Source: Liolophura sinensis
Lineage: Eukaryota; Mollusca; Polyplacophora; Chitonida; Chitonidae
DNA: 64,000 nt
Direction of reading: 5' to 3'
Assembly: GCF_032854445.1 (NCBI RefSeq)
Contig: NC_088296.1
Coordinates: forward strand, 15,921,485-15,985,484
This document shows positions 5,634 to 64,000 of this stretch, one piece after another. Each line of letters starts with the position of its first letter. Position 1 is the first letter of the stretch. The notes beneath the pieces were generated by a model. It did no database searches. It saw only the letters and a program-made list of their open reading frames with translations, and was not told where the DNA came from. The position numbers and the translations under genes were made by a program.

Positions 5634-8600
5634 GGCAAGGCTGGAAACGTTATTACCGCCCTTTATATAACTGGTTGCTTTATACGTGCAAGCCGAAGTA
5701 AATTATGTCAGATATTTGCGTGCATGTTTGGATCTTTGAATAAATGCACTAATTGAGCAGGCATCCCTGTAGAACGTGCTTTGGCAAAGTTGTAATGGTT
5801 TACATGGGTGTCAGTTGCATGATTGGGGTGGCGCCATGAGAGACAGCTTTATAAGATCCATGCCACATAGCACTGTGCATTATTTCATCATATAAAGCTC
5901 ATTTTGGTGTCCCTGTACACTAAGTTCTCCGTCATGCTGTACTTTCTAGAATAAGAATGTACACTGTCTGTAGTTTCCTCAAGAAGAAACTTCAGTTTAA
6001 CAATAGGGTGATGTCACAACTATCATTTAAGATGTGGAGAAAGGCTGAGTAACTGTACATTCCTGTATGAGAAAGTATGAGGCGCAAAACTGTTCAGCGG
6101 TGGGAGGGAGTGGGGATACGAAGTGGGCAGATGGCATGTGGGCTGATCAGCGGTGGGAATACGAAGTGCGCAGATAGCATGTGGGCTGTTCAGCAGTGGG
6201 AGGGAGTGGGGATATGAAGTGTGCAGATGCCATGTGGTCTGTTCAGCGGTGGAAGGGAGAGGGGATGCGAAGTGTGCAGATAGCATGTGGGCTGTTCAGC
6301 AGTGGGTGGGAGTGGGGATACGAAGTGTGCAGATGGCATGTGGGCTGTTTAGTGGTGGGTGGGATTGAGGATACAAAGCACGCAGATGGCATGTGGGCTG
6401 TTCAGCGGTGGGTTTGAGTGGGGATACGAAGTGTGCAGATAGCCTGTGGGCTGATCAGCGGTGGGAAGGAATGGGGATATGAACTGCGCAGATAGCATGT
6501 GGACTGTTCAGCAGTGGGTGAGAGTGGGGATACGAAGTGTGCAGATAGCATGTGGGCTGTTCAGCGGTGGGTAGGAGTGGGGAAATGAACTGCGCAGATA
6601 GCATGTGGGCTGTTCAGCAGTGGGTGGGAGTGGGGATACGAAGTGTGCAGATGGCATGTGGGCTGTTTAGTGGTGGGTGGGATTGAGGATACAAAGCACG
6701 CAGATGGCATGTGGGCTGTTCAGCGGTGGGTGGGAGTGGGGATACGAAGTGTGCAGATAGCATGTGGGCTGATCAGCGGTGGGAAGGAATGGGGATATGA
6801 ACTGCGCAGATAGCATGTGGACTGTTCAGCAGTGGGTGGGAGTGGGGATACGAAGTGTGCAGATAGCATGTGGGCTGTTCAGCGGTGGGTGGGAGTGGGG
6901 AAATGAACTTCGCAGATAGCATGTGGGCTGTTCAGCGGTGGGTGGGAGTGGGGATATGAACTGTGCAGATAGCATGTGGGCCGTTCAACAGTGGGAAGGA
7001 GTGGGGATATGAACTGCGCAGATAGCATGTGGGCTGTTCAACAGTGGGAAGGAGTGGGGATATGAACTGCGCAGATAGCATGTGGGCTGTTCAGCGGTGG
7101 GTGGGAGTGGAGATATGAAGTGAGCAGATAGCATGTGGGCTGTTCAGCGGTGGGAAGGAGTGGGGATATGAACTGCGCAGATAGCATGTGGGCTATTCAG
7201 CAGTGGGAAGGAATGGGGATATGAACTGCGCAGATAGCATGTGGGCTGTTCAGCAGTGGGAAGGAGTGGGGATATGAACTGCGCAGATAGCATGTGGGCT
7301 GTTCAGCACTGAGAAGGAATGGGGATATGAACTGCGCAGATAGCATGTGGGCTGTTCAACGGTGGGAAGGAGTGGGGATATGAACTGCGCAGATAGCATG
7401 TGGGCTGTTCAACGGTGGGAAGGAGTGGGGATATGAACTGCACGGATAGCATGTGGGCTGTTCAGCGTTGGGAAAGAGTGGGGATATGAACTGCGCAGAT
7501 AGCATGTGGGCTGATCAGCGGTGGGTGGGAGTGGAGATATGAAGTGAGCAGATAGCATGTGGGCTGATCAGCGGTGGGAAGGAATGGGGATATGAACTGC
7601 GCAGATAGCATGTGGACTGTTCAGCGGTGGGAAGGAGTGGGGATATGAACTGCGCAGATAGCATGTGGGCTATTCAGCAGTGGGTGGGAGTGGAGATATG
7701 AAGTGAGCAGATAGCATGTGGGCTGATCAGCGGTGGGAAGGAGTGGGGATATGAACTGCGCAGATAGCATGTGGGCTGTTCAGCGGTGGGAAGGAGTGGG
7801 GATATGAACTGCGCAGATAGCATGTGGGCTATTCAGCAGTGGGTGGGAGTGGAGATATGAAGTGAGCAGATAGCATGTGGGCTGTTCAGCGGTGGGAAGG
7901 AGTGGGGATATGAACTGCGCAGATAGCATGTGGGCTATTCAGCAGTGGGAAGGAATGGGGATATGAACTGCGCAGATAGCATGTGGGCTGTTCAGCAGTG
8001 GGAAGGAGTGGGGATATGAACTGCGCAGATAGCATGTGGGCTGTTCAGCACTGAGAAGGAATGGGGATATGAACTGCGCAGATAGCATGTGGGCTGTTCA
8101 ACGGTGGGAAGGAGTGGGGATATGAACTGCGCAGATAGCATGTGGGCTGTTCAACGGTGGGAAGGAGTGGGGATATGAACTGCACGGATAGCATGTTGGC
8201 TCTTCAGCAGTGGGAAGGAGTGGGGATATGAACTGCGCAGATAGCATGTGGGCTGTTCAGCGTTGGGAAAGAGTGGGGATATGAACTGCGCAGATAGCAT
8301 GTGGGCTGTTCAACGGTGGGAAGGCGTGGGGATATGAACTGCGCAGATAGCATGTGGGCTGTTCAGCGGTGGGAGGGAGTGGGCATATGAACTGCGCAGA
8401 TAGAATGTGGGCTGTTTTTTTCACTTGTTAGGGAGCGTTACCACCCACCATTTTGTCATCCACAGTTTTCTTCAGTTGCAGAAAACAACTTCAAGAAAAG
8501 CCAGCTGTTGAAACCCACCATCTTTTAGAACGCTTTGGAAGCAGTCTTGGCAAGAGATCTGCTATTATTAACGCGTCCACGGCACATGTGCATGCGTATA

Positions 8601-20235: not shown

Positions 20236-23200
20236 GTATGCGTAATTTGTGTAGTAGTCTCGCACAACCACACTTGTCTCTTCCCTACCCCAGTCCATGA
20301 GAGAGTCTGGTACTGGGGTGTTACAATAATTCCAGATACACTAATGACACTCGGCAGCTCAAAATAATGATGTACATATGAGTGAGTATATAGCTTGCCT
20401 TACAGAGTAAGGAGAGGTATTTTGATAGTGGGAGCAGATGGTGTCGGGGTCCAGTTTGGTTAAAGGTTTTGGCCAATCATAGGGTTGCAGTAGCCATCCA
20501 CGGGTAACAATAGCCAATCATCGGTAGCAATTTTCATATGAAAGACCATGGCAGTCTTTTACCTCATAGCTCAACATTTTGCTCAGCCATTCACAGGGTT
20601 GCAGTTGCCTCCCATACTACATGGATTGCCAAATGCAGTTCGTGATTTGCATGACTGATTGAAAACGGTTGAAACAAAACCGAAATACTGAAACATGCAT
20701 CATCTCGTATCTTTCATTGATGCTACCACAATACTCTACTTTATGAAGCTTATCAGTGGAAACACAGTGTCAATCATTCTACATTTTTTTTTTAAATTTA
20801 GAGATCAATATTTGAATGTATAATATGACTTGAACTCTATGCAGTTTTACAAACTACTCAATGAGGTGAGCTACCCATATTCTCAGAATGCCTTGTTTTA
20901 AATGGCGTCTTATTAAATTCTTCCATTTTAAATGGTCTTCCTGTGTCTGGACGTTATGCTTGATGGAGTTATCTCCCTTGACGGAACTGCTTGAACACTT
21001 TCACAATATCTTCGAGACACTCTCATTCTAACCTGTGAGAGCTATGATACTTATCTTCATAACTTGATATCTGAATGTCAGTGTTAATCTTATTTTCAGA
21101 TTGCTGCTTGCTAAAAACTGTGCCATTAAAACTGTGTTTCAGCGTCGTCTAAGAACTCTCAGAAAACAGCCAGACATTATCCACTTGAACCATTCATCCA
21201 TTGTCTTATCAGATGATCAGTCTCCAGCTCAGGTGGAGGAAAATTTCTTCAGGTTCGTATATAACAATTCATGAATATGGCATTTAGCAATATTCAAATA
21301 AATAAATAAATAAATCTAGGTCGTCGTGCACAAAAACGAGCTGCGATCTACGTAAATTTTGACAACTCTTAAAGGATCGAGCTTTGTTTCACAAGGTATT
21401 TATGAGCATTGCAAACGATCTTTGTTAATCGTATGCATATTTTTGTCACAGTGTGTGTCTGATTTCATACAGTCAAGTGACTACACATACCTACTGGGTA
21501 AATAAGAGTCCTGCAAGAGTGGATGGAGTGGTGGATTGATTAGGTGTGAATGCAAATAATTTCGAATAATCAGCTCAGGTATGTCATTGCCTTAACCATG
21601 ATCATGTTTTTTATTCATTACCTTCACAGGTACATCGAGAGTAAAGATGTCCGTTGTGCTATGGCCCAGCGGTTAGGTCACCCTCACGACGGTGGGTGGA
21701 ATGTCTGTCTGTCACCCCCATATGGACTGAAGAAGCCGTGTATTGTGTTCTCTTTCGGGTAAGGATGGAAAGGCTCAGTGTACAGTGTAAAGGACTACCT
21801 GTTGCCACATTTCTAAAGACATGTTATTCAATTTTTTGTGGAAGTGGTGACACACTTCCATGACCTTATTCCAAAGTTAAACAACAAACAAACAAATAAA
21901 TCCACTTCAAATTATACTTTGTTATTTCTGGGCTATATAGCAGTATTGTTTTTGTTTTGCAGTATAAACAATGACTGGCAGTTTGATGAAGCGGTGTCCA
22001 TCCTTTACAAATGTAAAGTCTATTCTTACGATCCAAGGTAAATATTGAAAGTTTTGTATGTGTTCACAGGTGTAAGTCCATCGCAGGGTGGTTAGAAAGA
22101 AAAGAAAACTTTAATTTATGCGATAAATAAATCTAATAAAATCAGAATTTTTTACGCTTTATTTAATCATAGTTGTGATTTTATGTAAATTTTTGTAGAA
22201 GAATAAGTGCTAAGTAAACACAATATAAATAGAAACACTGGCATTGTCATGTTTGGCTAAAAACCAGAGCAGCTGGAGTCAGGCACTCGGACCCTGGACT
22301 CTTTCAATGCCTGGAGGTAATATTGTATAGCCTTGGATGGATCACCATATTCATTCTCACACTCTGTATCTATGGCCATACATCAGCCACCAGAGGGCGC
22401 TATGTAACTTGTGTGCATGTGACCAAACCAGTGATGGACGGCTGGAACTGTCTTCTCATTGGTTAATATACCAATGCTCTAAATCTAGGCTCACAACATG
22501 GCATTTCCAAGAGATGTGCAGTTTTTTGGTGTTTTTTTTTTTTCCATTCTTGGAATCCTTTAAAAGATTCTTTCTTTCAACCATGAAGACTAGTAAAATA
22601 AGGTGACACACCAATTTTATGTTGTGTTTTACCGGCAAGCTGGCACTAAAAAAAATCCAAAAATGGAATGAGAATAAAGCTGAAAAACCAGGATTTATTT
22701 TGTCTGGTAAATGACTGCTTTTCAAGACTTTGTGATCACGTAAATACATTGTGTATGTCTTCCACAGGAAAAATTGCTTGGTTTGTCGGAAATTTTTTCC
22801 AAAATGAGCTGATTTTTCAGAAAAAGGATTTGTTCCGGCGGAAAAGCAACAATTTATTTGACGTGGCCAGAGTGAGAAATTAAATGTTTGATATCCCTAA
22901 TAACACATGTTTTTCAATGTTTGATATCCCTAATAACACATGTTTTTCAATGTTTGATATCCTTAATAACACATGTTTTTCAATGTTTGATATCCTTAAT
23001 AACACATGTTTTTCAATGTTTGATATCCTTAATAACACATGTTTTTCAATGTTTGATATCCTTAATAACACATGTTTTTCAATGTTTGATATCCCTAATA
23101 ACACATGTTTTTCAATGTTTGATATCCCTAATAACACATGTTTTTTAATGTTTGATATCCTTAATAACACATGTTTTTCAATGTTTGATATCCTTAATAA

Positions 23201-24623
23201 CACATGTTTTTCAATGTTTGATATCCCTAATAACACATGTTTTTCAATGTTTGATATCCCTAATAACACATGTTTTTCATCGTTCCTTTTCTGACAGTAT
23301 GAACATGCAGTCACATGACCGAGGTGAACACATTCACTTTGAACCAACAGGCCTGGGCGGGAGAGATGAGACAAACCATAATGGCTGGAAACTGAGGACA
23401 TTCCACACATATCTGATCAATCTGGATCTGACTGAGGTGAGAAAAGAAAAAGATGGGATATAGCTTATTATTAAAACAACACTGACTTCCAAAACAATCG
23501 GAGGCCTAGTAGACTTTTTGGTTGAAAGTAATGACTTATAGAGGCTGTCAGACTTTTGATGCATAAGTTGCAAGTTCAAATCTAGATAAGCTATTTTTGG
23601 AAAGCCTGGAGGAATCCATTGCTTTGAGTGACTTGACAGTTATGGGCTGTTGGTCAGAACTTCAGGGAATCTGTTATGGGCTTTTAGCAAGCAAACAACA
23701 GTCATTATTTGCTCTGAGTGACTTCACAATTATGAAGCTTCACCAGCTAAGGACTGTTGGTCAGAACCTCAAGGAATCTGTAATGATCAACTAGCAAGCA
23801 AGCAACAGTCATTATGTCATTGAGTTATGCGGCTCTGTTTTAACTTATTATTTGTTTTATTTGAGGGGCCTCTGCGGTTGAGGTGGTTAGCAATGACACA
23901 GAAGTCTCTCACCGATGAGTTTGCTGTGAGTTCAAGTCCAGTTCATGCTGGATTCCTCTCCGATCGATCTTTGGAAGGTCTTGAGAAGCAATCTGCGGAT
24001 GGTTGTGGCCTTTCCTCAGGGCTCTACTGGATTTCCTCCTATCATAAAGCTGGCTGTCGTAGAAGTGAAATCTTCTTGAGTACAGAGTAAAACGCCAATC
24101 AAATAAATAAATAAATATTTGTCATAATTTACATGTAGTGATCGCAGTTTAAAATATTTTTAAGGAAACCGTTCAGGATATTTCATAGTTTGTATTTGTC
24201 TATTTCTGAACACCCAGTGTTGTTTTCATTTTCCAGAAGGCGATAGATTATTTGAAGTTTGACATTGAGTATTCAGAGTGGTCTGCCTTGGAAACCATGG
24301 CAACAGACGGCTCTCTGGAAAATGTGCGGCAAATCGGCTTTGAAATCCACACGCCGGAGCTCTTCAGGGCTTTTAAGATGAATATTCCATCGAAAAAACA
24401 CGACTACTTGAAAATGTATCAGACTTTAGCGAAACTCGAAGAGATTGGGTTTCGACGGTATGATCACCGCAGGAATCCATTCGGGGAATTCAGGTCAAAT
24501 ATTTCCGGGATCGTCCGAGCCTGCTGCTATGAGCTGTACTACCTCAACATGAAGTATTACACAGAACACCAACAGGAAATGGAACATGACAAACGAGTTG
24601 TTCAGTTATTTGATGACGGGTGA
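20080..24623 (+). CDS. METTL24-like membrane-anchored methyltransferase-family protein (6 exons)
   Basis: Exons 20080-20235, 21143-21252, 21630-21758, 21963-22037, 23298-23436 and 24237-24623 join in phase (996 nt, 331 residues plus TGA). All have GT-AG borders. Residues about 13-31 form one hydrophobic segment (FLVVLCFGVFLLWQLLTV) after RRR, a type II signal anchor, so the catalytic part should be lumenal. Then come a glycine motif with acidic follow-up (CIVFSFGINNDWQFDEAV, YSYDPS) and FDIEYSEW, matching motif I and the D-E-W motif of Methyltransf_22/FkbM-type proteins such as METTL24. Substrate and activity are not established for this family as far as I know. The predicted start has 110 bp between it and a TIR element; upstream 5' UTR exons cannot be excluded. 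Confidence 0.87.
21143..21252 (+). CDS. METTL24-like gene, exon 2
   Basis: Acceptor ACTGTGTTTCAG and donor AG|GTTCGT bound 110 nt, phase 0 to 2. It encodes RRLRTLRKQPDIIHLNHSSI and SDDQSPAQVEENFF, a linker with a possible N-glycosylation sequon (NHS), consistent with a lumenal position. Confidence 0.75.
21630..21758 (+). CDS. METTL24-like gene, exon 3
   Basis: Acceptor CCTTCACAG and donor GG|GTAAGG bound 129 nt. It encodes YIESKDVRCAMAQRLGHPHD, GGWNVCLSPPYGLKKPC and the start of motif I (IVFSFG). Cysteines and the GGW..C pattern are typical of this family. Confidence 0.85.
21963..22037 (+). CDS. METTL24-like gene, exon 4
   Basis: Acceptor TTTTGCAG and donor AG|GTAAAT bound 75 nt, phase 2 on both sides. 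It encodes INNDWQFDEAVSILYKCKVY followed by SYDP, i.e. the end of motif I and the acidic residue after strand 2. Confidence 0.8.
22387..22402 (+). promoter_or_regulatory. CTCF-like motif
   Basis: CCACCAGAGGGCGCTA matches the bilaterian CTCF core (CCASYAGRKGGCRS). It lies in intron 4 of the METTL24-like gene, about 480 bp before the minisatellite. A weaker match, GGTAGAGGGCGCTCC, is at about 37045. Confidence 0.45.
22884..23279. repeat. 33-bp minisatellite in METTL24-like intron 4, 12 copies
   Basis: Twelve units of 33 bp (ATGTTTGATATCCCTAATAA plus CACATGTTTTTCA), with a CCCTAAT/CCTTAAT variant. The array ends 18 bp before the acceptor of exon 5. All frames on both strands stay open across it, a consequence of period 33 rather than coding. 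Confidence 0.95.
23298..23436 (+). CDS. METTL24-like gene, exon 5
   Basis: Acceptor TTTTCTGACAG and donor GAG|GTGAGA bound 139 nt, phase 2 to 0. It encodes SMNMQSHDRGEHIHFEPTGL and DETNHNGWKLRTFHTYLINL. The acceptor lies only 18 bp after a 33-bp minisatellite. Confidence 0.85.
23612..23820. repeat. Direct duplication of about 100 bp
   Basis: Two diverged copies share TGAGTGACTTSACARTTATG, CTGTTGGTCAGAAC, GGAATCTGT and AGCAAGCAACAGTCATTAT. It lies in the last intron of the METTL24-like gene. Confidence 0.75.
23862..24116 (+). mobile_element. SINE-A, full length, diverged
   Basis: GAGGGGCCTCTGCGGTTGAG to AAATAAATAAATAAAT. In the last intron of the METTL24-like gene. Confidence 0.9.
24237..24623 (+). 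CDS. METTL24-like gene, terminal exon 6
   Basis: Acceptor TTCATTTTCCAG, then 128 codons and TGA. It contains FDIEYSEWSALETM, the conserved acidic motif, then a family-like C-terminus with RQIGFEIHTPELF, RYDHRRNPFGEF and CCYELYYLN. Confidence 0.9.
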   Translation, partial: KAIDYLKFDIEYSEWSALETMATDGSLENVRQIGFEIHTPELFRAFKMNIPSKKHDYLKMYQTLAKLEEIGFRRYDHRRNPFGEFRSNISGIVRACCYELYYLNMKYYTEHQQEMEHDKRVVQLFDDG

Positions 24624-48846: not shown

Positions 48847-48916
48847 CGGTATAGAAAGGTGGAGGTAACGAGATGTCCCTCTATCAGCTTCCATACTTCC
48901 GTTCACCTGCTCACTT

Positions 48917-49459
48917 TACAGAGTCAAATTGTATCAGAGACTGAAGTCTGGGCGATCCTAGGAATAATGGTGAATCCCCTCTATCATCTGCTGATTACAG
49001 AGTCAAATGGTATCAGAGACTGAAGTCTGGGCTACCCTCGGAGTAATGGTGAATCACCTCTATCATCTGCTGATTACAGAGTCAAATGGTATCAGTGACT
49101 GAAGTCTGGGCTACCCTCGGAATAATGGTGAATCCCCTCTATCATCTGCTGATTACAGAGTCAAATGGTATCAGAGACTGAAGTCTGGGCGATCCTAGGA
49201 ATAATGGTGAATCCCCTCTATCATCTGCTGATTACAGAGTCAAATGGTATCAGAGACTGAAGTCTGGGCTACCCTCGGAGTAATGGTGAATCACCTCTAT
49301 CATCTGCTGATTACAGAGTCAAATGGTATCAGAGACTGAAGTCTGGGCTACCCTCGGAGTAATGGTGAATCACCTCTATCATCTGCTGATTACAGAGTCA
49401 AATGGTATCAGAGACTGAAGTCTGGGGTACCCTCGGAATAATGGTGAATCACCTCCGTT
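48917..49459. repeat. 79-bp minisatellite, about 7 copies
   Basis: Seven units beginning TACAGAGTCAAATGGTATCA at 48917, 48996, 49075, 49154, 49233, 49312 and 49391. Two sub-types (GCGATCCTAGGAATAA versus GCTACCCTCGGAGTAA) are interleaved. Confidence 0.95.
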
Positions 49460-52015: not shown

Positions 52016-55000
52016 CTGCTCAAATACAGATCAAAGAAAAATCCCTATGAGTATGAAGTATGGTTGGTGCGTGTTAGTATACTGCACTCCATAAATCCTA
52101 ATGTCTTTCCATCTTGGCATCTTGCCATTGGTAATACCAGCTTATGATAAAGTGGTCATTTGAAAATATAACACTTGATCCACTTAGAGGGATTACCCGG
52201 AACCCATAACAATGAAGGAATCTCTTGAACAATTAAAAAAATGTAAACAAAAAAAAAAAAACAAAAAAAAAAAAACAAATCGACAGGCGGTCACAAATTG
52301 CGACGTATGCATATTTCCATAATGCAACCCTCGATCAAGACCATGACGAACATCATCTCCAACAACAACAGAAGCTACGTCATCCACCATCGTGCTACAC
52401 GTCACAGCTAAAAAGTAACTGTGCTTATGGTACAGTAAATGGAGTAGAACCAGAGCAACGACGACAGTGTGGTAATTGGTATGATGGCTCATTTGGGTTA
52501 AGTTGTAAGCCGTGTGTCTTCATATAGCAATGCAATGGAGCCATATAACAATGTGACGTTTTGTTTATGTATTTATATATTTATTTATTTGATTGGTGTT
52601 TAATGCGTACTCAAGAATATTTCACTTATACGACGGCAGCCAGGATTATGGTGGAAGGAAACTGGTGGGAAGAAACTGAACTCACATCGACCACATGGAT
52701 GAGGGGCTCCGGAGTCATCGTATCGCGCTGGCACGCTATCCACCTTGGCCACCTTAGCTCCTTTGCTTATTAAGAAAGGATTCTCTTAGGCGGGTTATGT
52801 TCTTAACTTTAGGTTAAATTTTTGCAAGATGAGTTTTTGTAACTGAGATTGTGGTTTGAGGATGACTAGAACGGAACCTCATACAAAACATGGATTGAGG
52901 CGGTCTGAAAGGGAAGAGTTCAAATCCAGCATAACTTGTTTAGTGCCTATATGATACAGTTTTCGGCAAGCAATTTACATAGAACGACTGTCGCGGAATA
53001 AAACACTGTATGGCTCACTAAGAATAGTTTACATCCGATCAAAATGGTAAAATAAACAAATACAATTCCAAAACATTCGCATTTTAAAACTCAGATGCAA
53101 CAATGAGCGACTTGTTGTCAAAATACAGAGTGTAAAAAGCACGGTTTCCATAGAAACACGATTTTAATGACATCACTGAACATGATTTTTTTTTCTTACA
53201 GGTATGGCTATACGAGCAACAAAAAAGGCAGAGGAATTTACACCAGATCTTTTCATACCAAATTCAAATGCGTACACACGGAATGTGGTATAAAAATAAC
53301 GTTTTGTAGGGTCACGTGGTTCAGCATGTGGTTTGCAGGGATTACAGATAGGGTCGCGTTCTTCCTCATGGCCCCGTCTTATTCACGGAAATAGTGCAGA
53401 CGAGCTATATGACAAAATATACACGGCTCTATTAGCTGAGCTATGGTATAGCGTAAACAGCTGTATAATCTGTGATCTATGCAAGCTCATCGCTTTGTTA
53501 AAGTAACACTGAAACCATCAAGAACTTATTGAAAATGCTGTTTTTGTTACTTACTTGTACATTCGTTTTAGAAAATAGTCCTTCGCCAAAAGCGACATTT
53601 GTGTACATTGCACTTAAGAGATACAACATACAGACTGAGAGAAATACCATGGCAACGACAGCGAATACAGAACGACCAGTTCGACGAAAAAAGAGTAAAT
53701 GGGATGGTAATTTAACATATAACCATAACCTTCATACATATCTTAAAACAAAAGAAAATATGATAATCATAGACCTATTTTTGTAATGGGTAAACTACAA
53801 ATTCATAAAATAAATCGCTCTGAAAAATGTTATAAAACTTAATGTGCTAAGTTGCCTATGTCCATTATTCTTGACTATAAAACTTAATGGAACTAAACCC
53901 CATCACGCCCCTCCTTAAAAATGCCTTTAAGGCAAATAGAATCTGTCCACTTACAAAAGGGTCAAATAAGTGTGATCAGTCAATACTGTAACCGTAACAA
54001 CCTGATAACTGATGACTTTCAAGCGGGATTATGGTGAATTCCACGTTTGCAGTTGTTATATTTTTCAAAAACCCGTCCTCCTTTAAGTCATTACACTGTT
54101 TATTTTGTAACCTAATCGCAAAATTCTCAAAACATTCACATAGCCTAAAGAGTTAAGCCTGTTTAAAATTTGGAAAATATTTTAACCTATGCACTGTGGA
54201 TATGTAACCTTGAGTTAGTCTCTTGGATTGAATGACTCAAACCTTTTTAATTCGATACTTCATTAGACGCTTGGCAAAACACCTTACCCAGAAGCCCTCT
54301 CGTGTCTTCCGAGTGGCGCCATCGGCCGCCAAGCTTTCCCAGACACTCAAGTTGCACCCATTCTGACAACGACAGAACGGTGGCCATCTTGTTGTTGTTG
54401 TTGTTGCTGTTGTATTGTGTCGGGGTATGTTGTAGGTGTTACCCTCTGGCATTGACACAAAGACAGCTGATCTACTTATAGCCAAGACTTCACGAGTTAT
54501 GCCCCAGGTCACATGCATAGATATACACGCTGAGATGTACAAATTCCCCATTTACAGTATCGGCGAGCTATCTTAGATGAGATAATCTTTTCGGTCGTAT
54601 AGTGGTTAAATACCATCCTTTAGTATATAGTAGTACAGCGTTAAGGGGATTGGAGTCGGGTCAGGCGCAGGGGTCAGCGAGGGACGCGCAAATAAAGCAT
54701 GATACAAATTTAGGTGCATCAACGCCCGAAGAAAACTTGATAGTTGTCTTATGAATGAAATGTCCATGACAACGGCGTGAAACAATAGTGAAACAAATAA
54801 AATTAGGAAACTTGTGAAACATTTAATGTTAAATTTAACAGAGAATCTGTTGTCTGAGTGATGCTATAATGTATACAGCTCTAGTTCACGTTTCTACAGT
54901 TGACAGTCAAAACTGGTTTATTATTGGTGCAATAATTGACAAAGGTCTCCTGTACAGCCACTGTACACTGTAAAGCGAATATTTGTGAATTTCCATTTCA

Positions 55001-58000
55001 CTCTTGATTATTCGTCCTTTTTCATATTGTCCTAAACTTTAGCCCATTGACGGGACGTGATTTGCAAGAAAATTATATTTACGAAGTTTTATGAAAGTAG
55101 GCACTGATAAATAAATAAATTCAAAAACTTTATTAAAGTGACCCCTTGACCGTCTGATCTGTGGGTTAAGATCGACGACAGCCTGTCGAGGTCACCGAGT
55201 TTAACAGGTAGGCCTACATGATATAAGCTAGATAAAAACAGTGCCATATTAAAACCTGCTACGATTATACCGTTACAAATTTCAATTTATTTATTTATTC
55301 AGGTGAAGGGTGTTTTACGCCGTACTCAAGACTATTTCACTTATACGACGGAGGCCAGCAGTATGGCGTTAGGAAACCGGCCAGAGGCCGAGGGAAACCC
55401 ACTGCCATCCGCAGATTACAAATTTAAATGGTCCCTAATATATAACCTATCTCTCTGTGAGAAAGTTTGAAGAATAGCTCACAAATGTACGTCACGAATA
55501 CCTTATTAAAAACATGCACCCAACAGGCTTTCTGCTATACAAGTTTTCCATCAACGTTCTGTTTTCGTCATATTTGTTGACCCCGACGTAAAACCCCAAG
55601 CATACATGATAAGACTATGGAGAGTACAACGAGAGCAGCAACGACAGCTGACACGTGGTCACACGGAACATGTAAAACTCCTTGTCAGTTTACCTCAGTT
55701 GGGCGTTTTATTTTTTACAGTCCATGCGATTCCTTAAATTGTAGCAACTTACAAGTTTCCCAGTTCTACGGTTTTTTTTTAAATATTTATTTATTTATTT
55801 GATTGAAATTTCACGTCGGACTTAAGAATAATTCACATATACTACGTCGGCCTTGAAACCCACGACCATCCACAGGTTGCTGGAAGAGCTTCCCACGTAC
55901 GGCCGTCGAGGAAACCAGCATAAACCCACGACCATCCACAGATTGCTGGAAGAGCTTCCCACGTACGGCCGTCGAGGAAACCAGCATGGGCTGAACTTGT
56001 ACTCATCTCAACCGCCTTAGTGTGAGGCTTATGAGTCACTGTCCTGCGTTAACACGCTAAACATTTCGGCCGCGGAGGCCGCCGGGGTTTTCATGGTTTG
56101 TTTCGTAAATCGTACAGGTGTACGACAGTGTAATGTAGACAGAAAATAGCCCATGTACGTTTATTATTTGATGCATTTATTTATGTGTTTACTGTAATAT
56201 TTTCATGTACACCACATCTTGGCTATTGGTGGAAAAAGTAAATAAATAATTAATTAAAATTCACCAGTTTTAATATATTCAGTTTTGAAATAAGAATAAA
56301 CCAGATATTTAGGGAAGAAAAGGCGATACATGGTTATCTTCTTAAATACTTCGATGGTTATTGATTAATTGTTTAAACTAAGATAAAAAATGTAAAAAAA
56401 AAATGGATAGGCCTCAATGTTGTCGGGCAGCAGTTTGAATAATTTTTATTTTGCTGAAAATAACCAAACGTCGTTCTCAAGAAAAACTCACCAATAGACT
56501 CACTATCGTCGTTGCCATGGATACAGAACGAGGTCGGTGATCCGCCGTTAGGTTGTTCAAGGTCATGACCTCTGTTGGATTTTAACTCCCGTCCCGGAAG
56601 GTAAATCTCATTGCATAGGACCGGCATGGAATGGCTGTACCTCAATCTGGACATGCGCTGCAGGTACTCGGCCTCGCTATCACCATCGGACTGGGAGCTA
56701 TCGTCGACGTAGCCCGAGTCTGACGTCACTTCCGCTTGGAATCCTGGCTTGGATGTCATGTGCAGCTTTCCCAGCGCGCGCATTAATTTGTTGCTCTCAT
56801 CTTCGGATAAATTCAGGAGATAGACCATGTCAGGACTGAGCATCTTAATCGTTGCCATGGAGTCGAAATGCTCCAACGCCAGCATCTGACGAGTGTGTTT
56901 GCTGAGTTTGTTTGCGGTCGCCCATCTCCTGTACTCGAAGTCAACCAGTGAACTGAGCTGCATTTCTGAGAACAAACAAACGTTACTTTACGTTTATTAG
57001 CTTATTTACTAGATTAGAATTTACCCCGCAACTGCAATTTTACCCACATTGGAAGAAAGGACCTTCGCAACTCCATTTTCATTTAAATTGAAGAACCTTC
57101 TCGGCAACAAACAGGCAAAACCTTTTACTCTGATTTTGAAATACTTTGCAACAAAACAATCACCGGGTGTGCACTCATATAGGGACCATTCTAATTTGTT
57201 GTGAGTAACTTGTGTTGTCATGACAATGCTAAGAGATGGTTTAAAATATTTCAAGAAATACCCTGATATCAAGTCTTTGCCAAAGCAGCTGCTAGGCCTT
57301 AGCGCATTGTACTGAAGGGTTTCATTATGTACTGTGTGAAATTCATTTATTTATTTATTTGATTGGTGTTTTACGCCGTACTCAATGCCATCCGCATGTT
57401 GCTGACAGACCTTCCCACGTTCGGTCGGAGATGAAGCCAGCATGTGCTGGACTTGATCTCACAGCGACCGTGGGAGACTCCTGGGTCATTACGCTGCGCT
57501 AGCGCGCTATCCAACTGAGCCACGAAGGCTCCCGTGTGAAATTCAGAAGACACTTATTAAACAGCCCTTTAGAATAGTAAACAAACATCGTTTGAAGGCT
57601 GGCATTCCATTTCAAAGAGTTGATACATGTACTATGTGGTTGAAAACCGTGTGTATAGCCCTTGTTGTGCGATATTGTGTGGTTGCAAATCGTTCAGTTA
57701 CGGTTTTTCGTATAATTATATTTTCTTTTGAAGGCGTAAACTTCGTGAAGTTGAAACGCGTTTGTTCTCCTTTATAAACTATATAATATGGTTTAAGTTA
57801 ACTCAACAGCCATGTACTATGAAGGGAAACTCTTGTGGTTTCATGTGTTTCAGCACAATGTGGTTACGTTACATCATTAACTCTATATGTACCATGAGGT
57901 TGAAACTCATGCGTGTTCCTTTCTGTTTAAATACAATGTGGTTGGTTTTTCTCAACAACCATGTACCGTGAGGTTGGAACCCGTTTGGGTTGCTTTCTAT

Positions 58001-61000
58001 AAACATGCTGATTTCCTGTTTTAACAACAATGTCTCACGAGTTTGACCTTAGTGTGAACATTTTTGTATCCTGTACACTGTGGTTATGGTATATAACCAT
58101 GCATTTGCTTCGTGCTGATTTGCCATGTTGTATATCTACAGCAAAATGCAAGTAAACTAAACTGCGTTTCGTAAAGAACATAAAACAGAATTTAATGAAC
58201 AGAAGATAAGCGAAGATAATTTATTTATTTATGCATATTTATTTATTTATTTGAATTGGGTTTTACGCCTTATTCATTTATTTGTTTTTATTTCATTGTT
58301 GTTTTACGCCGTACTTAAGAATATTTCACTTATACGACGGCGGTGGGGGGAAATCGGGCACAGCCCGGGGGAGACCCACGCCCATCCGCAGGTTGCTGAA
58401 AGACCTCCTCACGTACTACTACACCGTATTCAAGAATATTTCACTTATACGACGGCAACCAGCATTATGGTGCTGGAACCCGTCTTAAAATTTTAAAAAA
58501 TGAGATGTCATCGATTTGACGGACGGACATACCTATCTATTTACCGCCAGACACAGACATTACATGTATGAGCTTACATATCAATTTTCTTCATTCAATT
58601 GTTTTTCTTTATTCACAAGAATACATGCTTTTAGTTAATGACAAACGCATTTCACAAAAAAAAAAACAAAAAAAAAACAGTTATGGTCGTAAAGTATACT
58701 GAGAAAATTATATTTTTGACGCTTCTGATTATTGTTTAACGCTGGAAACGGTCACACGCGCGTCGTTGACCGTGAGTTGTAACCAGACCCCTTCGAGCAA
58801 CGATAGCAGGGGAACCTGCAAGGTCCAAGGGCGGGTTCGAACCCACACCTCGCGATTGTTGTTACAATATATGGCAAAATGGTTATAGTTGTGATGAATG
58901 GCAAAACGATATTGGTTGCAAGGGACAGCAAAAATAGATGTCGCAGCAATGAGTATGAAAAATATTTATGGCCTCAATGCATGGATAGATGGTTGTAGCT
59001 GTAATGCATATCAAGATATACAATAGTAACGACGTCCATTGCTGCACTTACGTGACTCTATATAAAGAAGGGGTCTGCACCGTTATATGCAAAAAGCGTT
59101 CGTTTCCCCGGATGTTTCGGTCGCACATATTGACGTAAATGTTTTTATTTTTAGAAATGAACTTTTGTTAAATTCTTTCACACATTGTCTCTGAGTGAAT
59201 TGAATAAGGGTTTTACATTTATGTGACATAGAGAGCCCATTGCTGGTAAGTTCTGGGTGGGACATACAAGTGTAGATCCACAAAAGCCCTAATGAGAGAT
59301 AAAAGAGGACAAACAATTAATTATTTGTTTTGTGTTTATGGTTTAACTTCATACTCAATAATTTTTCACTTATACGACAGCAAACAGGTTTATGGTGGAG
59401 GACACCGAAGAGGAGCTGAAAGAAACAAACACGGGCTTTTCAGGTGGATAACAAACTTTGTGACTTAAAGTGGCAGCGCGCAAGCTGTATTCGAACCCGT
59501 GACTTCGTTGACGAGGGACCAATCGGAAGCATCTCAAACAACGCTTCTATGAGAGACAAATAGAAAAAGGTTCTTAAGCAAAATCTAAAAGAAGAAAAAG
59601 AAGTGAAAAAACTCACAAAGCAACGTACATTGCTTGATTTTAAGAGAGCGAAGTAAAAACTCACCAGTCTTTTTACCAAAGAAGCGCCTCATAATGATTA
59701 GTCGAATTTAGTTAATCCATAAAGCTGATAGACATATTAATGTGGACATTTCTAAACATGTGCTCTTAACGTAATTTCCCACGTAGTCTACAGAGCACAT
59801 GGCTGTATGTCTACTCACTCGTTCCCTTGCGTACAGGAGACTGGTGACTGCAAAACCGTACGTCATTTATATACGTAAGGAACAGACAAACAAAGTAATG
59901 GCAAACCAAGAAAAAAAGATTAAACAAAAAGAACTATTTTTACCATCGGTAGCGGCGTCCTTTTTTCCGCCCTAACTACCGGCTAACTAAGACAGCGTTG
60001 TATTCATCCGCGCACGCTTCTTTTCATAACTGAACGTCTTCTGTGCAATCATAAATGGCTACGGCTGGGGTTGTGGTGGACGTGGGTAAAAATGAACTAA
60101 TACGATGCCATTTCGAACCAAATGCTGTCTGGCCGAAGGCCACTGGCAGCTAACATTGAGGGTAATACTCTAAGCCAAGATCAAAATGACGTGTGATCCG
60201 ATAGATATCAGGCATATTCAGTATGTTTTTCTATCTAATCATTTGGAATCATTTTTTATTGTGCTGTGGAGGGATTTGCCCTTTAAAATATAAGGTATTT
60301 ATTGTCATAAACAGAACATGAAGTTCTTCTCAGCTCAAAAACCCACGACCACCTGCAGGTTACTGCAACACCATCCCGCGTAAGACCAACCGGATAGGAA
60401 GCCAGCATGAGCTGGACCCAGCTCACAGCGATCGCGTTAGTGGTAGGTTCCTGATTTCTAACGCTACCCTTGCCACCTAACAGCTACGTCATGGAGGTCC
60501 GACCCCAAAGCCTTGAAAATAACACGATGTTATCATAGGATACTTTGCTGAGTTTAAGCTGATGGTAGCTTAATAGTCGCACACTGAAAATATGAGTTTA
60601 ACTCTTAACCTGAACATTCTTGATTTATGTAAAAAGATAATCACGAAGTGCACTTTAAAGCCAAATCAAGACATATTTGTCTTGTTACGATACTTATCAC
60701 GTCTTCGCTTAATATAAATTCTAAGTAGACGAAAGTGGTCACTAGACAAAAAAATAACCTATGTTTCTGAGACGGCGTTTTGCACAAGGTTGATTAGAAA
60801 AAATGTTTAAATAAAGTTTGACACAACGAAAAGGAGCTATAATGACTACAAGTACTAAAACCTATGTGTACTAAGTCAAAGGAGAATACCACTAAGTGCG
60901 TATGGTTCACTTTTTGCAGTACATCATCGTCATGACGGAAGCTCTTTTCATTCAGGTTTGGACCCACAAGGAAATCCGAAACCTCCATTCACTGCTCCAC

Positions 61001-62860
61001 ACTGAAACAATATTTTGGTGAAGTTTTACAACAGAAAACACGCGTTTCTTTGTCTGTGTTAACACAGATAGGAGGGGAAAATGCTATTTGCTATATAGAG
61101 AATTCTTGTTAGTCTGTCGCCTTGTAAAACATATGCCCCACGTCAGGTGTCCATCAAGTGCACGAGCACGTGTCACCACGTGGTTTAGAGCATTCGGGTT
61201 CAATTTAATGATTTATTTCTTTGTTTAGTGATTGACTGAGTGACTGTAGGACCAACCGACTAATATATAACTGCTGCAATCAGGTCGTATTTACTGGATG
61301 ATTTCATTGATTATTTATTGACTGAGTGACTGAGTAGCATAAATTGACTAACGCACGTATATGTTGGTTGACAAGCAGGATTTTGGGTATCGGCTGATTT
61401 GGTGTTTTACGCCGTGCTCAAGAATATTTCACTTATAATTCGGCCGTCAGCATTATGGTGGGAGGAAACGGGGCCGAGCACGGAGGAAACCCATAGCCAT
61501 CTACAAGTTGCCGCAGCACCCTCCCACGTTAGGTCGGAGAGGAAGCCAGCATGAGGTAGACTTGAACTCACAACGATCGCTTTGGTGGGAGACTCCTGGG
61601 TCATTGGATGATACTCACAACGATCGCTTTGGTGGGAGACTCCTGGGTCACTGGATGACACAGACTGACTTGCAATGCATTGGCTGTGTTAGTAGATGGG
61701 TAATTGAGTGAGTGACTAACTGACTTACAAAATACACCAAACCATAAACTAACATCAATCACCTTGATACTGATTAAGTTTTTGTACTTTCACATATACA
61801 CATAAACCACATCAGCTGTGCAGGGGGGGGGGGGCTACAATCGAAAATCTTCGTAAATCAAATTTTTTGTAAATTGTTGCCAAGTTACGAGAAAATGACT
61901 TTTGTGAAATTCGCACCAGGCACGTGGATCTCTGCAGAGGTGTTTGAAATGACACGTAAAGGGGCATTTGACCATTGTATGCATATTCATAGGCCTACGC
62001 TTTTTCCACAAAAATCTCCGCCCTACCATAAACTACGATATCGCTGCAGTGCGTTATCCTTAACACTTTTTCTTTTGCGAATAATGTCAATGATGTTGGT
62101 GGTCAGTTGAACTGATCGTGCCCAAATCATGAACACCTGCTCAAACAGGTAGTTCCTTTTCCGTGATTAATGGAAATTTGCATGCATGGGTCAGTACTGG
62201 GCGTTCACGGTGACAGTAAAAGTGAAACACTGACCAAGTGCTAAATCTGACCGTCTCATTGTTAAGCGTATAAGAAACATGCCGAGAACAATAGAGCTAC
62301 TGAACTCTATTGTCATTCTTTTTTTTTACACATTATCTCTTTTTTATTGTGTTTGAAAAATTTCCGCGAGTTTGCCTGCCCGGAAACAGAAAGGGCACGC
62401 GGTGTATGGTTTGTGGACTAGCCGCGGATTTGGCTGTATAATAACACATCGGATGTATCCGGTAAAATCTCGGTAAATCTCGCGGTTTCTAAGCAATGAC
62501 GTTAGGAGCGCAGAGTAACTTCCCTTTCCAGAGTCACGTCATTGGTCATACAAGTGCATTGATAAACTGACATTAATGACTCATATGAATGCTCGCCGCC
62601 ACGTAACGTCAGTCAAATACCGTAGGGTGGGGCTCACACAGCCTCGCATGTGCCTTGATCTCGAAAGGCCGTGAAGAAATCTGGAACATCAGGTTTTGCT
62701 CAAAGTACGGCGTTAATAGCCTTGTTCATGGCAAAATTTTAACGTTACTATAAACAGGTAAACACAGCCCACGAGTGATTCAAAGTGCGGCCTTAATTTC
62801 ACATGTTGTGTTTTAGAACTATTTACAGCTGGCGTGTTTTTCTTTTTTTTTCTATTCTAG

Positions 62861-62896
<36 letters not shown>

Positions 62897-63616
62897 TTGA
62901 TACAACTATACTATCCTTGTCCTGTATATGTTATCATCACCGTAAATGCACTTACACGTATCCATAGTGACTGAAGTTAAACAAAAATTTTAAGAAATGT
63001 AGGAACCCTTTCATTGACATCAAAGGACCTAGTTATCTAAAAATATGCTTTACTACAAGAAAGCTCCGATGATAGATTTGATACTGATTTTTGTACTATC
63101 CACGTTTGTAATATTGATGTAAAAGCAAAGCATTAAAATACAGAAGTGGGTATGTCCCGAAATAAGAGGACATCTTACCAAGAAAGCAAACACGAATATA
63201 TTTTGAATTCTCATCACTGAAAATAAAATATCCTCACCAACTGCTAGCACTCCTTTGTCACGTAAATAATGCTGCGCATTTTATCCAATATGATTCGGAA
63301 AAATCTGCACGTATAGGATTACAACTGTCACAAAATAGCTTAATTATATAATCGTCAAACTATAAATAAATACATAATTTAAATGTTTTAGATATACAGG
63401 GTATAGTAGAATTGTAGAATATTTGAAAATTAGAAATTGCTAAAATTTGAAATAAAAATCATAGATTTCTCGCACAATTAATAATTTCTGCAGATATGGT
63501 ATAAATGTGTTTTAATTACCTGAAGACGACTTCCGGAGGCTCCCTCGTTCAATCAGGCCTAGTTTGTCAAGGCTGCCTGACATGCTCTTGTGGAGTAGTC
63601 GTTTTATGGTTGACAT
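50634..63616 (-). CDS. SAM-like plus NHL-repeat beta-propeller protein (3 exons with alternative first exons)
   Basis: Longest model: exon 1a 63616-63520, exon 2 56965-56492, exon 3 52015-50634; 1953 nt, 650 residues. Every junction is phase 1 and every border GT-AG. Exon 1a gives a basic N-terminus, exon 2 a SAM-like helical domain plus an acidic Ser-rich linker, exon 3 an N-terminal helical segment (ELQDILEYMVLEDITTREIQ) and about six NHL blades. NHL propellers of TRIM2/3/32/71 and Brat bind RNA or protein partners. No RING, B-box or cysteine zinc motif is visible, so this is not a classical TRIM E3 ligase. RNA or protein scaffold function is inference. Two further ATG exons (59692-59665, 54387-54288) end in the same phase. 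Confidence 0.85.
52567..52757 (-). mobile_element. SINE-A, internally deleted
   Basis: Tail, CGTACTCAAGAATATTTCAC and ATTATGGTGGAAGGAAAC present; it jumps to the head (GGCACGCTATCCACCTTGGC). Confidence 0.8.
54288..54387 (-). CDS. NHL gene, candidate alternative first exon 1c
   Basis: ATG in a strong Kozak context (CAAGATGGCC), 33 codons plus one base, donor CTTCTGG|GTAAGG. Encodes MATVLSLSEWVQLECLGKLG and WRHSEDTRGLL. It lies between exons 2 and 3, so a transcript starting here would lack the SAM-like exon and join exon 3 directly in phase. A CAA/TTG triplet run (54390-54413) sits immediately upstream of the ATG. Confidence 0.45.
55284..55418 (-). mobile_element. SINE-A, 3' half
   Basis: TTATTTATTTATTCAGGTGA to CCACTGCCATCCGCAGATTA. 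Confidence 0.88.
55783..56085 (-). mobile_element. SINE-A with internal tandem duplication
   Basis: Tail to head, with a 67-68 bp segment (AAACCCACGACCATCCACAG to GAGGAAACCAGCAT) repeated at 55856 and 55924. The GGTTTCC/GGGCTCTGCC block is deleted. Confidence 0.88.
56492..56965 (-). CDS. NHL gene, exon 2 (SAM-like domain and acidic linker)
   Basis: Acceptor TTTGTTCTCAG and donor G|GTGAGT bound 474 nt, phase 1 on both sides. The first ~65 residues (LVDFEYRRWATANKLSKHTR, then LLNLSEDESNKLMRALGKLH) show the spacing of hydrophobic residues expected of a five-helix SAM domain; this is a pattern match, not a proven fold. The rest is acidic and Ser-rich (SDSGYVDDSSQSDGDSEAEY), with RYSHSMPVLC, a plausible phosphorylation or 14-3-3-like site. 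As a symmetric phase-1 exon it can be skipped without a frameshift. Confidence 0.8.
57343..57532 (-). mobile_element. SINE-A, internally deleted
   Basis: TTTATTTGATTGGTGTTTTA CGCCGTACTCA then directly ATGCCATCCGCATGTTGCTG; complete head ending CCAACTGAGCCACGAAGG. Confidence 0.92.
57600..58110. repeat. Degenerate 67-77 bp tandem array
   Basis: Related units carrying CATGTACYATGAGGTTGAAA and ACAATGTGGTT recur near 57623, 57811, 57887, 57959, 58025 and 58071. Spacing of the clear copies falls from 77 to 67 bp. Old, eroded array inside the NHL gene locus. Confidence 0.6.
58216..58480 (-). mobile_element. Two or three clustered partial SINE-A copies
   Basis: Three repeats of the 3' signature (TTACGCC at 58263, GCCGTACTTAAGAATATTTC at 58306, CGTATTCAAGAATATTTCAC at 58424), consistent with serial insertion or local duplication. 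Confidence 0.8.
59330..59430 (-). mobile_element. SINE-A-like decayed 3' end
   Basis: GGTTTAACTTCATACTCAAT AATTTTTCACTTATACGACA then GTTTATGGTGGAGGACAC. Confidence 0.55.
59665..59692 (-). CDS. NHL gene, candidate alternative first exon 1b
   Basis: ATG at 59692, nine codons plus one base (MRRFFGKKT), then a strong donor G|GTGAGT. Basic like exon 1a, with the same phase-1 end. Splicing to exon 2 or exon 3 keeps the frame. Very short, so support rests on the donor, phase, strand and position. Confidence 0.5.
60338..60500 (-). mobile_element. SINE-A, 5' two thirds
   Basis: AAAACCCACGACCACCTGCA to CTACGTCATGGAGGTCC; the tail part is missing. Confidence 0.85.
61398..61655 (-). mobile_element. SINE-A with duplicated head segment
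   Basis: GATTTGGTGTTTTACGCCGT through AGGTAGACTTGAACTCACAA; a 46-bp block (ACTCACAACGATCGCTTTGG TGGGAGACTCCTGGGTCA) is repeated in tandem at 61567 and 61613. Confidence 0.9.
62861..62897. repeat. (TTA)n microsatellite
   Basis: Twelve TTA units in the first intron of the NHL gene model. Confidence 0.9.
63520..63616 (-). CDS. NHL gene, first exon 1a
   Basis: ATG at 63616 in good context (TTCAAGATGTC), 32 codons plus one base, donor TCTTCAG|GTAATT. Encodes MSTIKRLLHKSMSGSLDKLG and LIERGSLRKSSS, a basic Ser-rich N-terminus. The phase-1 end fits both exon 2 and exon 3. It is too short to stand out in a plain ORF search but fits the gene on phase and strand. Confidence 0.7.
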
Positions 63617-64000
63617 CTTGAAGTACCGTGATTCTACGGTATTAAAGAAATTTAAAAGAATATCCCTGAACCAGTTGTGTGAGACAACTTTCGAAAATTA
63701 TGACACCAATAAAAGTAAAGGAACGTGCAACTGTTGTGGATCAGTTATAGAGTTATTGGCGGAATTCCTTGTAACCGAGAGTATCTGTCGTGGATCCTTC
63801 ACAGTAGTATAGGCTAGAATACCATATAAACCAAAGTAACTTTCGTAGATGTGTTTTACTGCATTCTTGGCCGGATCCCTTCCAAACGAGGGTAACTGTC
63901 TTGGATCCCTTAGAGTAGTTTTGGGCAGTGCTCCGATGTAACCGAAAATAAAACTATTGCTTCAAGCAGATGCTTTCGTCCAAAAATCAATTTTCTGCTT

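Follow-up and report, generated by a model that had tools for sequence, protein, structure and literature searches.

We analyzed a 64,000-nucleotide window of the Liolophura sinensis genome (C2:15921485-15985484, from an assembly of 609 Mb in 632 contigs), whose minus strand carries a gene with a terminal exon encoding NHL repeats, called the NHL gene here. Upstream of this terminal exon (exon 3) lie an internal exon (exon 2) and three short ATG-bearing segments, 1a, 1b, and 1c, each a candidate first exon (Table 1). A first-pass annotation had placed all five exons and had argued that alternative promoters create several protein forms. The exon boundaries held up: each candidate first exon stops one base into a codon, with a fair to strong donor, and exons 2 and 3 both start in phase 1. 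Donor and TATA scores are given in bits, the donor scores from a generic metazoan donor matrix. Exon 3 encodes ~460 residues, with an N-terminal region of unknown fold and then the NHL propeller at the end. We give about even odds to an ordinary animal gene of three exons, with a start exon, a phase-1-1 exon 2, a phase-1 terminal NHL exon, and more than one start. Judged by their sequence features, one or two of the candidate starts look real, and their use in the cell is a prediction.

Table 1. Features of the NHL gene. Positions are counted from the first nucleotide of the window; a slash in a donor marks the end of the exon.
Feature	Position	Strand	Description
Candidate first exon 1a	63616-63520	minus	97 nt; peptide MSTIKRLLHKSMSGSLDKLGLIERGSLRKSSS plus 1 base; donor CAG/GTAATT, 8.3 bits
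TATA-like site upstream of 1b	59873-59864	minus	TATATAAATG; best octamer 10.0 bits
Candidate first exon 1b	59692-59665	minus	28 nt; peptide MRRFFGKKT plus 1 base; donor CTG/GTGAGT, 10.6 bits
Exon 2	56965-56492	minus	474 nt; phase 1-1; acceptor TTTGTTTGTTCTCAG; donor 8.2 bits
CAA/CAG-rich leader	54388-54412	minus	CAACAGCAACAACAACAACAACAAG; abuts the 1c ATG
Candidate internal first exon 1c	54387-54288	minus	100 nt; peptide MATVLSLSEWVQLECLGKLGGRWRHSEDTRGLL plus 1 base; donor TGG/GTAAGG, 8.4 bits
Exon 3, terminal	52015-50634	minus	starts in phase 1; stop TGA; NHL propeller

When the exons were joined in silico, all five possible joins reached the exon 3 stop without interruption, at 650 amino acids (1a-2-3), 492 (1a-3), 627 (1b-2-3), 469 (1b-3), and 493 (1c-3). 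At least two candidate first exons fit the same acceptor in frame in these joins, and the phase of exon 2 means that the frame is kept when it is skipped. The earlier claim that exons 2 and 3 are both open to every first exon is thus correct for 1a and 1b and fails for 1c, which sits 3' of exon 2 and can therefore join exon 3 only. The exon 3 acceptor sequence (52016-52021), GAGCAG, is tandem, and use of its alternative site could lengthen the protein by one residue. The phases and the open joins are read directly from the DNA, as are the phase-1 acceptors of a paralog described below. Given that exons 2 and 3 both have phase-1 acceptors, only phase-1 starts would be kept, and the shared phase needs no special explanation; the need for any working first exon to end in phase 1 was probably inherited. 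Agreement in phase among the candidates follows from the common acceptor and, alone, is no evidence for alternative promoters.

Of the three candidates, 1c is the best, 1a is fair, and 1b lacks a coding signal. We ranked the 48 donor-phase candidates of the window by donor, start context, and codon score, using a codon model built from exons 2 and 3 together with exon 3 of the paralog, and 1c came fourth. Its start context (AAGATGGCC) is strong, a codon score at least as high was seen in 2.3% of the 349 open ATG segments compared, and its own frame was the top of the three. When both strands of the window were scanned for a CAA/CAG-rich run beside an ATG, the 1c leader was the sole pattern match. 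The predicted 1c peptide is neutral (4 K+R versus 4 D+E), and those of 1a (7 versus 2) and 1b (4 versus 0) are basic, as had been described.

Candidate 1a is fair and is most likely the distal first exon. The closest ATG upstream of its own is 209 nt away, a gap as long as this preceding 1.2% of 1,333 minus-strand ATGs. Its codon score was matched or beaten by 14% of 349 controls, with higher scores in both other frames, and the second ATG of its frame ranked 11th of the 48. In a further 20 kb upstream of the window, none of seven minus-strand candidates was in phase 1 with a donor of at least 8.3 bits.

Candidate 1b has the strongest donor in the interval 52016-64000 and a TATA-like site upstream of it, the sole strong one for the three candidates; a TATA score of at least 9 turns up in 8.8% of 2,000 random 275-bp minus-strand stretches. 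Transcription from this site would be expected to start at ~59845. Six ATGs precede 1b within 200 nt of 59692, five of them 3' of the TATA-like site, so that the 1b ATG, if used, would need reinitiation or leaky scanning. Its codon score was matched or beaten by 40% of 1,337 controls, and it ranked 22nd of the 48. The leader also contains a second donor-like sequence, CGA/GTGAGT at 59818 (7.3 bits), and splicing there would remove five of the six upstream ATGs. It is as likely that 1b serves as a noncoding or weakly coding leader, with translation from exon 2, as that its own ATG is reached by reinitiation or leaky scanning.

This possibility can be extended to the whole gene. In-frame ATGs lie near the 5' end of exon 2 (56963) and of exon 3 (51998), and coding first exons are therefore not strictly required. 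The first exons could be mostly noncoding leaders, with translation starting from these two ATGs and the phase match irrelevant; for 1b, an RNA from the TATA-like site would carry a long frame beginning in exon 2, possibly via the donor at 59818. The position of both ATGs and the score of that leader donor are consistent with such an arrangement. We consider it rather unlikely, given that 1c itself is coding-like and that the paralog lacks ATGs in these places: its exon 2 opens with QCLADG, with no ATG there, and its exon 3 reaches an in-frame ATG only at the eleventh whole codon.

The paralog lies ~166 kb away on the opposite strand, where a relative of exon 3 (C2:15804820-15806151) has 43% identity, no stops, and a score of 357 bits; among the best candidates scored, the next matches to exon 3 in the assembly reached at most 106 bits. 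A lax tblastn search of six loci placed a relative of exon 2 in the paralog locus (L010:6558-6668, 43% identity over 37 amino acids, E = 3.6e-5). It was absent from a default tblastn search at 1e-5, and a whole-genome search with exon 2 at E = 0.001 returned the window copy alone, which means that the paralog's exon 2 falls below detection there. Both paralog exons have phase-1 acceptors, TTGTTTCAG for exon 2 and one at L010:8774 for exon 3, so that in both genes any coding first exon that works has to finish in this phase. These acceptors are probably older than the duplication that produced the gene pair. A first-exon candidate at L010:29-140 (MASNSWTKFWPQVLEKLRGSKKKDWKERHMMSVYNIS) ends in phase 1 with a 12.3-bit donor, and a second phase-1 candidate upstream of exon 2 (L010:1774-1855) scores 7.9 bits. 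In this comparison with a distant paralog, the first-exon candidate at L010:29-140 matches those of the NHL gene in phase and not in peptide. We rejected a peptide common to this candidate and those of the NHL gene, as the observed score was reached in 484 (1a), 1,417 (1b), and 1,073 (1c) of 2,000 shuffles.

We favor, with a probability of about one half, a reading in which 1a, perhaps with 1b as an additional leader, starts a long form and 1c marks an internal promoter for a form lacking exon 2. A distal first exon, most likely 1a, would be spliced to exon 2 to give the long protein; 1b might be a second leader and need not code. An internal promoter in intron 2 would start at 1c, which would be spliced to exon 3 to give a protein without the exon 2 part. 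Promoter activity, the junctions used, and a functional difference between the forms are what we infer from these features. The earlier proposal of alternative promoters giving several forms is thus plausible, with the sequence features backing 1c and, to a lesser degree, 1a; 1b has no coding support as an N terminus. If 1c is used, an annotation with one start per gene would overlook the product that lacks the exon 2 sequence, and a comparison of the forms with and without this sequence could test what it does.

Several observations weigh against this reading. Candidate 1c has a weak TATA-like site (4.4 bits), an out-of-frame ATG lies 65 nt 5' of its own, and on donor plus start context it scores lower than a decoy, a phase-0 pair of ATG and donor at 53650-53555 in the same intron (11.3 versus 12.4). 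The paralog's intron 2 holds no 1c-like phase-1 candidate at 5.5 bits or above, and the 1a, 1b, and 1c peptides have no counterpart in the paralog loci (best tblastn E = 1.6). In the paralog itself, the first-exon candidate is nearly devoid of codon signal (0.5 bits), a weak donor (5.3 bits) follows exon 2, and the exon 2 relative (C2:15802528-15803345, or L010:6529-7346) contains one frame break in the assembly. Finally, the number of phase-1 candidates is compatible with chance and at most suggestive.

That last point rests on a count of open ATG frames of 24 to 300 nt ending in phase 1 in the interval 52016-64000, outside exon 2. On the minus strand, exactly 1a, 1b, and 1c were present at 8.3 bits or above, and the plus strand held no phase-1 candidates at 7.5 bits or above. 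Overlapping control windows of the same size, 154 in all, were taken from the rest of the window on both strands; their mean was 1.11, and 13% contained at least three. In 60 first-order Markov sequences, with an 8-bit cutoff, the mean was 1.08 and 5% contained at least three, compared to the three observed; at 8.4 bits, two were observed against a Markov mean of 0.85. Neither set of controls clearly backs the idea that three matching phases are improbable in themselves, and we dropped it; the candidates had probably been picked for their fit to the acceptor.

These counts are in line with another explanation, in which 1a is real and served by a single promoter while 1b and 1c are chance ATG-donor pairs picked for fit. 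It accords with the lack of a coding signal in 1b, with the five ATGs that follow its TATA-like site, and with a paralog that has one strong distal first-exon candidate, the second being the 7.9-bit one. It accounts less well for 1c, with its unusual combination of leader, start context, and codon score, or for the coincidence in 1b of the interval's strongest donor and a strong TATA-like site. We regard the single-promoter explanation as possible but less likely than the reading with an internal promoter.

Another alternative, on which the broken exon 2 frame of the paralog bears, is that 1a, 1b, and 1c all serve as first exons and that exon 2 can also be left out after 1a or 1b, giving five forms. 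Skipping would leave the frame intact, and the paralog protein might need to skip its broken exon. We saw no sign of exon 2 skipping in the NHL gene, however, and the break could have arisen recently or through faulty assembly: 3' of it, the shifted frame is still exon 2-like, with 7 of 19 residues identical (E = 1.7 alone). We consider five forms very unlikely. Quite unlikely, too, is a combination in which the two loci form a RING-less NHL gene pair, promoter choice (1a or 1b versus 1c) sets the presence of an uncharacterized exon 2 domain, 1b is under the control of upstream open reading frames, and the paralog, its exon 2 frame broken, has settled on the form that lacks the complete domain.

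The NHL repeats of exon 3 matched Pfam PF01436 (E = 1.3e-25), and its best matches among PDB sequences were the NHL domain of TRIM2 (4e-51) and then TRIM3 (3.7e-46); its propeller matches in NCBIfam were all under the curated cutoffs. TRIM-NHL proteins carry a tripartite motif (RING, B-box, and coiled coil) before their NHL repeats. The NHL gene resembles TRIM2 and TRIM3 in having C-terminal NHL repeats but differs from them in that RING and B-box Pfam families were unmatched (E up to 1) in exon 2, exon 3, and the 1c peptide; the scan covered exons within the window, and the start exons are too short for a RING or B-box. The SAM-like label that the first-pass annotation gave to exon 2 was not confirmed. 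Pfam SAM was unmatched in exon 2 at E up to 1, its first 74 residues were unmatched at E up to 10, PDB matches were at chance level only (E = 0.76 to 1.5), and NCBIfam gave one match (E = 0.17). A single-sequence structure model of exon 2 was unusable, with a mean predicted local distance difference test value of 39.2, as was a second single-sequence model, at 39.5. Searches of viral and of bacterial and archaeal collections with six peptide patterns gave 13 and 83 pattern matches, respectively, with no confirmed relatives of exon 3.

Multiple first exons are well known, and the layout of the NHL gene is ordinary in animals. For instance, a dozen first exons splicing into exon 2 have been described for plectin (PLEC) (PMC8468861). 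The likeness lies in several first exons joining a common exon 2 and providing short, differing N termini (PMC8468861); the plectin first exons are known from transcripts, whereas those here are predictions, one of them downstream of exon 2. In RBM20, exon 1B is reported to provide an alternative start, and translation then begins at an internal ATG (PMC13198548). Here too an intragenic start site leads to a shorter form (PMC13198548), but the RBM20 form uses an ATG in exon 2, whereas 1c would bring its own ATG and 33 residues. Among molluscs, alternative first exons are reported to make up a large share of splicing events in the Manila clam, a bivalve (PMC9803972). In a literature search on NHL/TRIM genes, alternative first exons or promoters, sterile alpha motifs, and molluscs, the gene was not described in the title or abstract opening of the matches listed.

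Two origins for the candidate first exons were rejected. For 1a and 1c as duplicated exons, the local score was 21, a value that 32.5% of 2,000 shuffles equalled or exceeded; an origin from repeats of the window found no backing either, with none of the first-exon bases inside window self-matches. The 1b and 1c stretches had no second match in the assembly, a search result that is not proof of rarity. We also set aside a bacterial-type promoter scan as irrelevant to an animal gene.

Over the whole window, ARAGORN and Rfam (gathering threshold) found nothing, and three words of a short interspersed nuclear element-like core were unmatched in the papers searched. An open frame on the plus strand (24210-24623) weakly matches FkbM-type methyltransferases in Pfam (0.00037; 21.1 bits versus a cutoff of 22.7). 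Tandem repeats are present at several places. A minisatellite at 6153-8416 consists of ~43 copies of 53-bp units with a strong skew of G over C, and a 79-bp tandem array of ~7 copies (48916-49455) lies ~1.2 kb past the stop of the NHL gene. At 22883-23279, twelve 33-bp units with a 98% match leave open frames on both strands, the minus-strand frame encoding KHVLL(R/G)ISNIE repeats.

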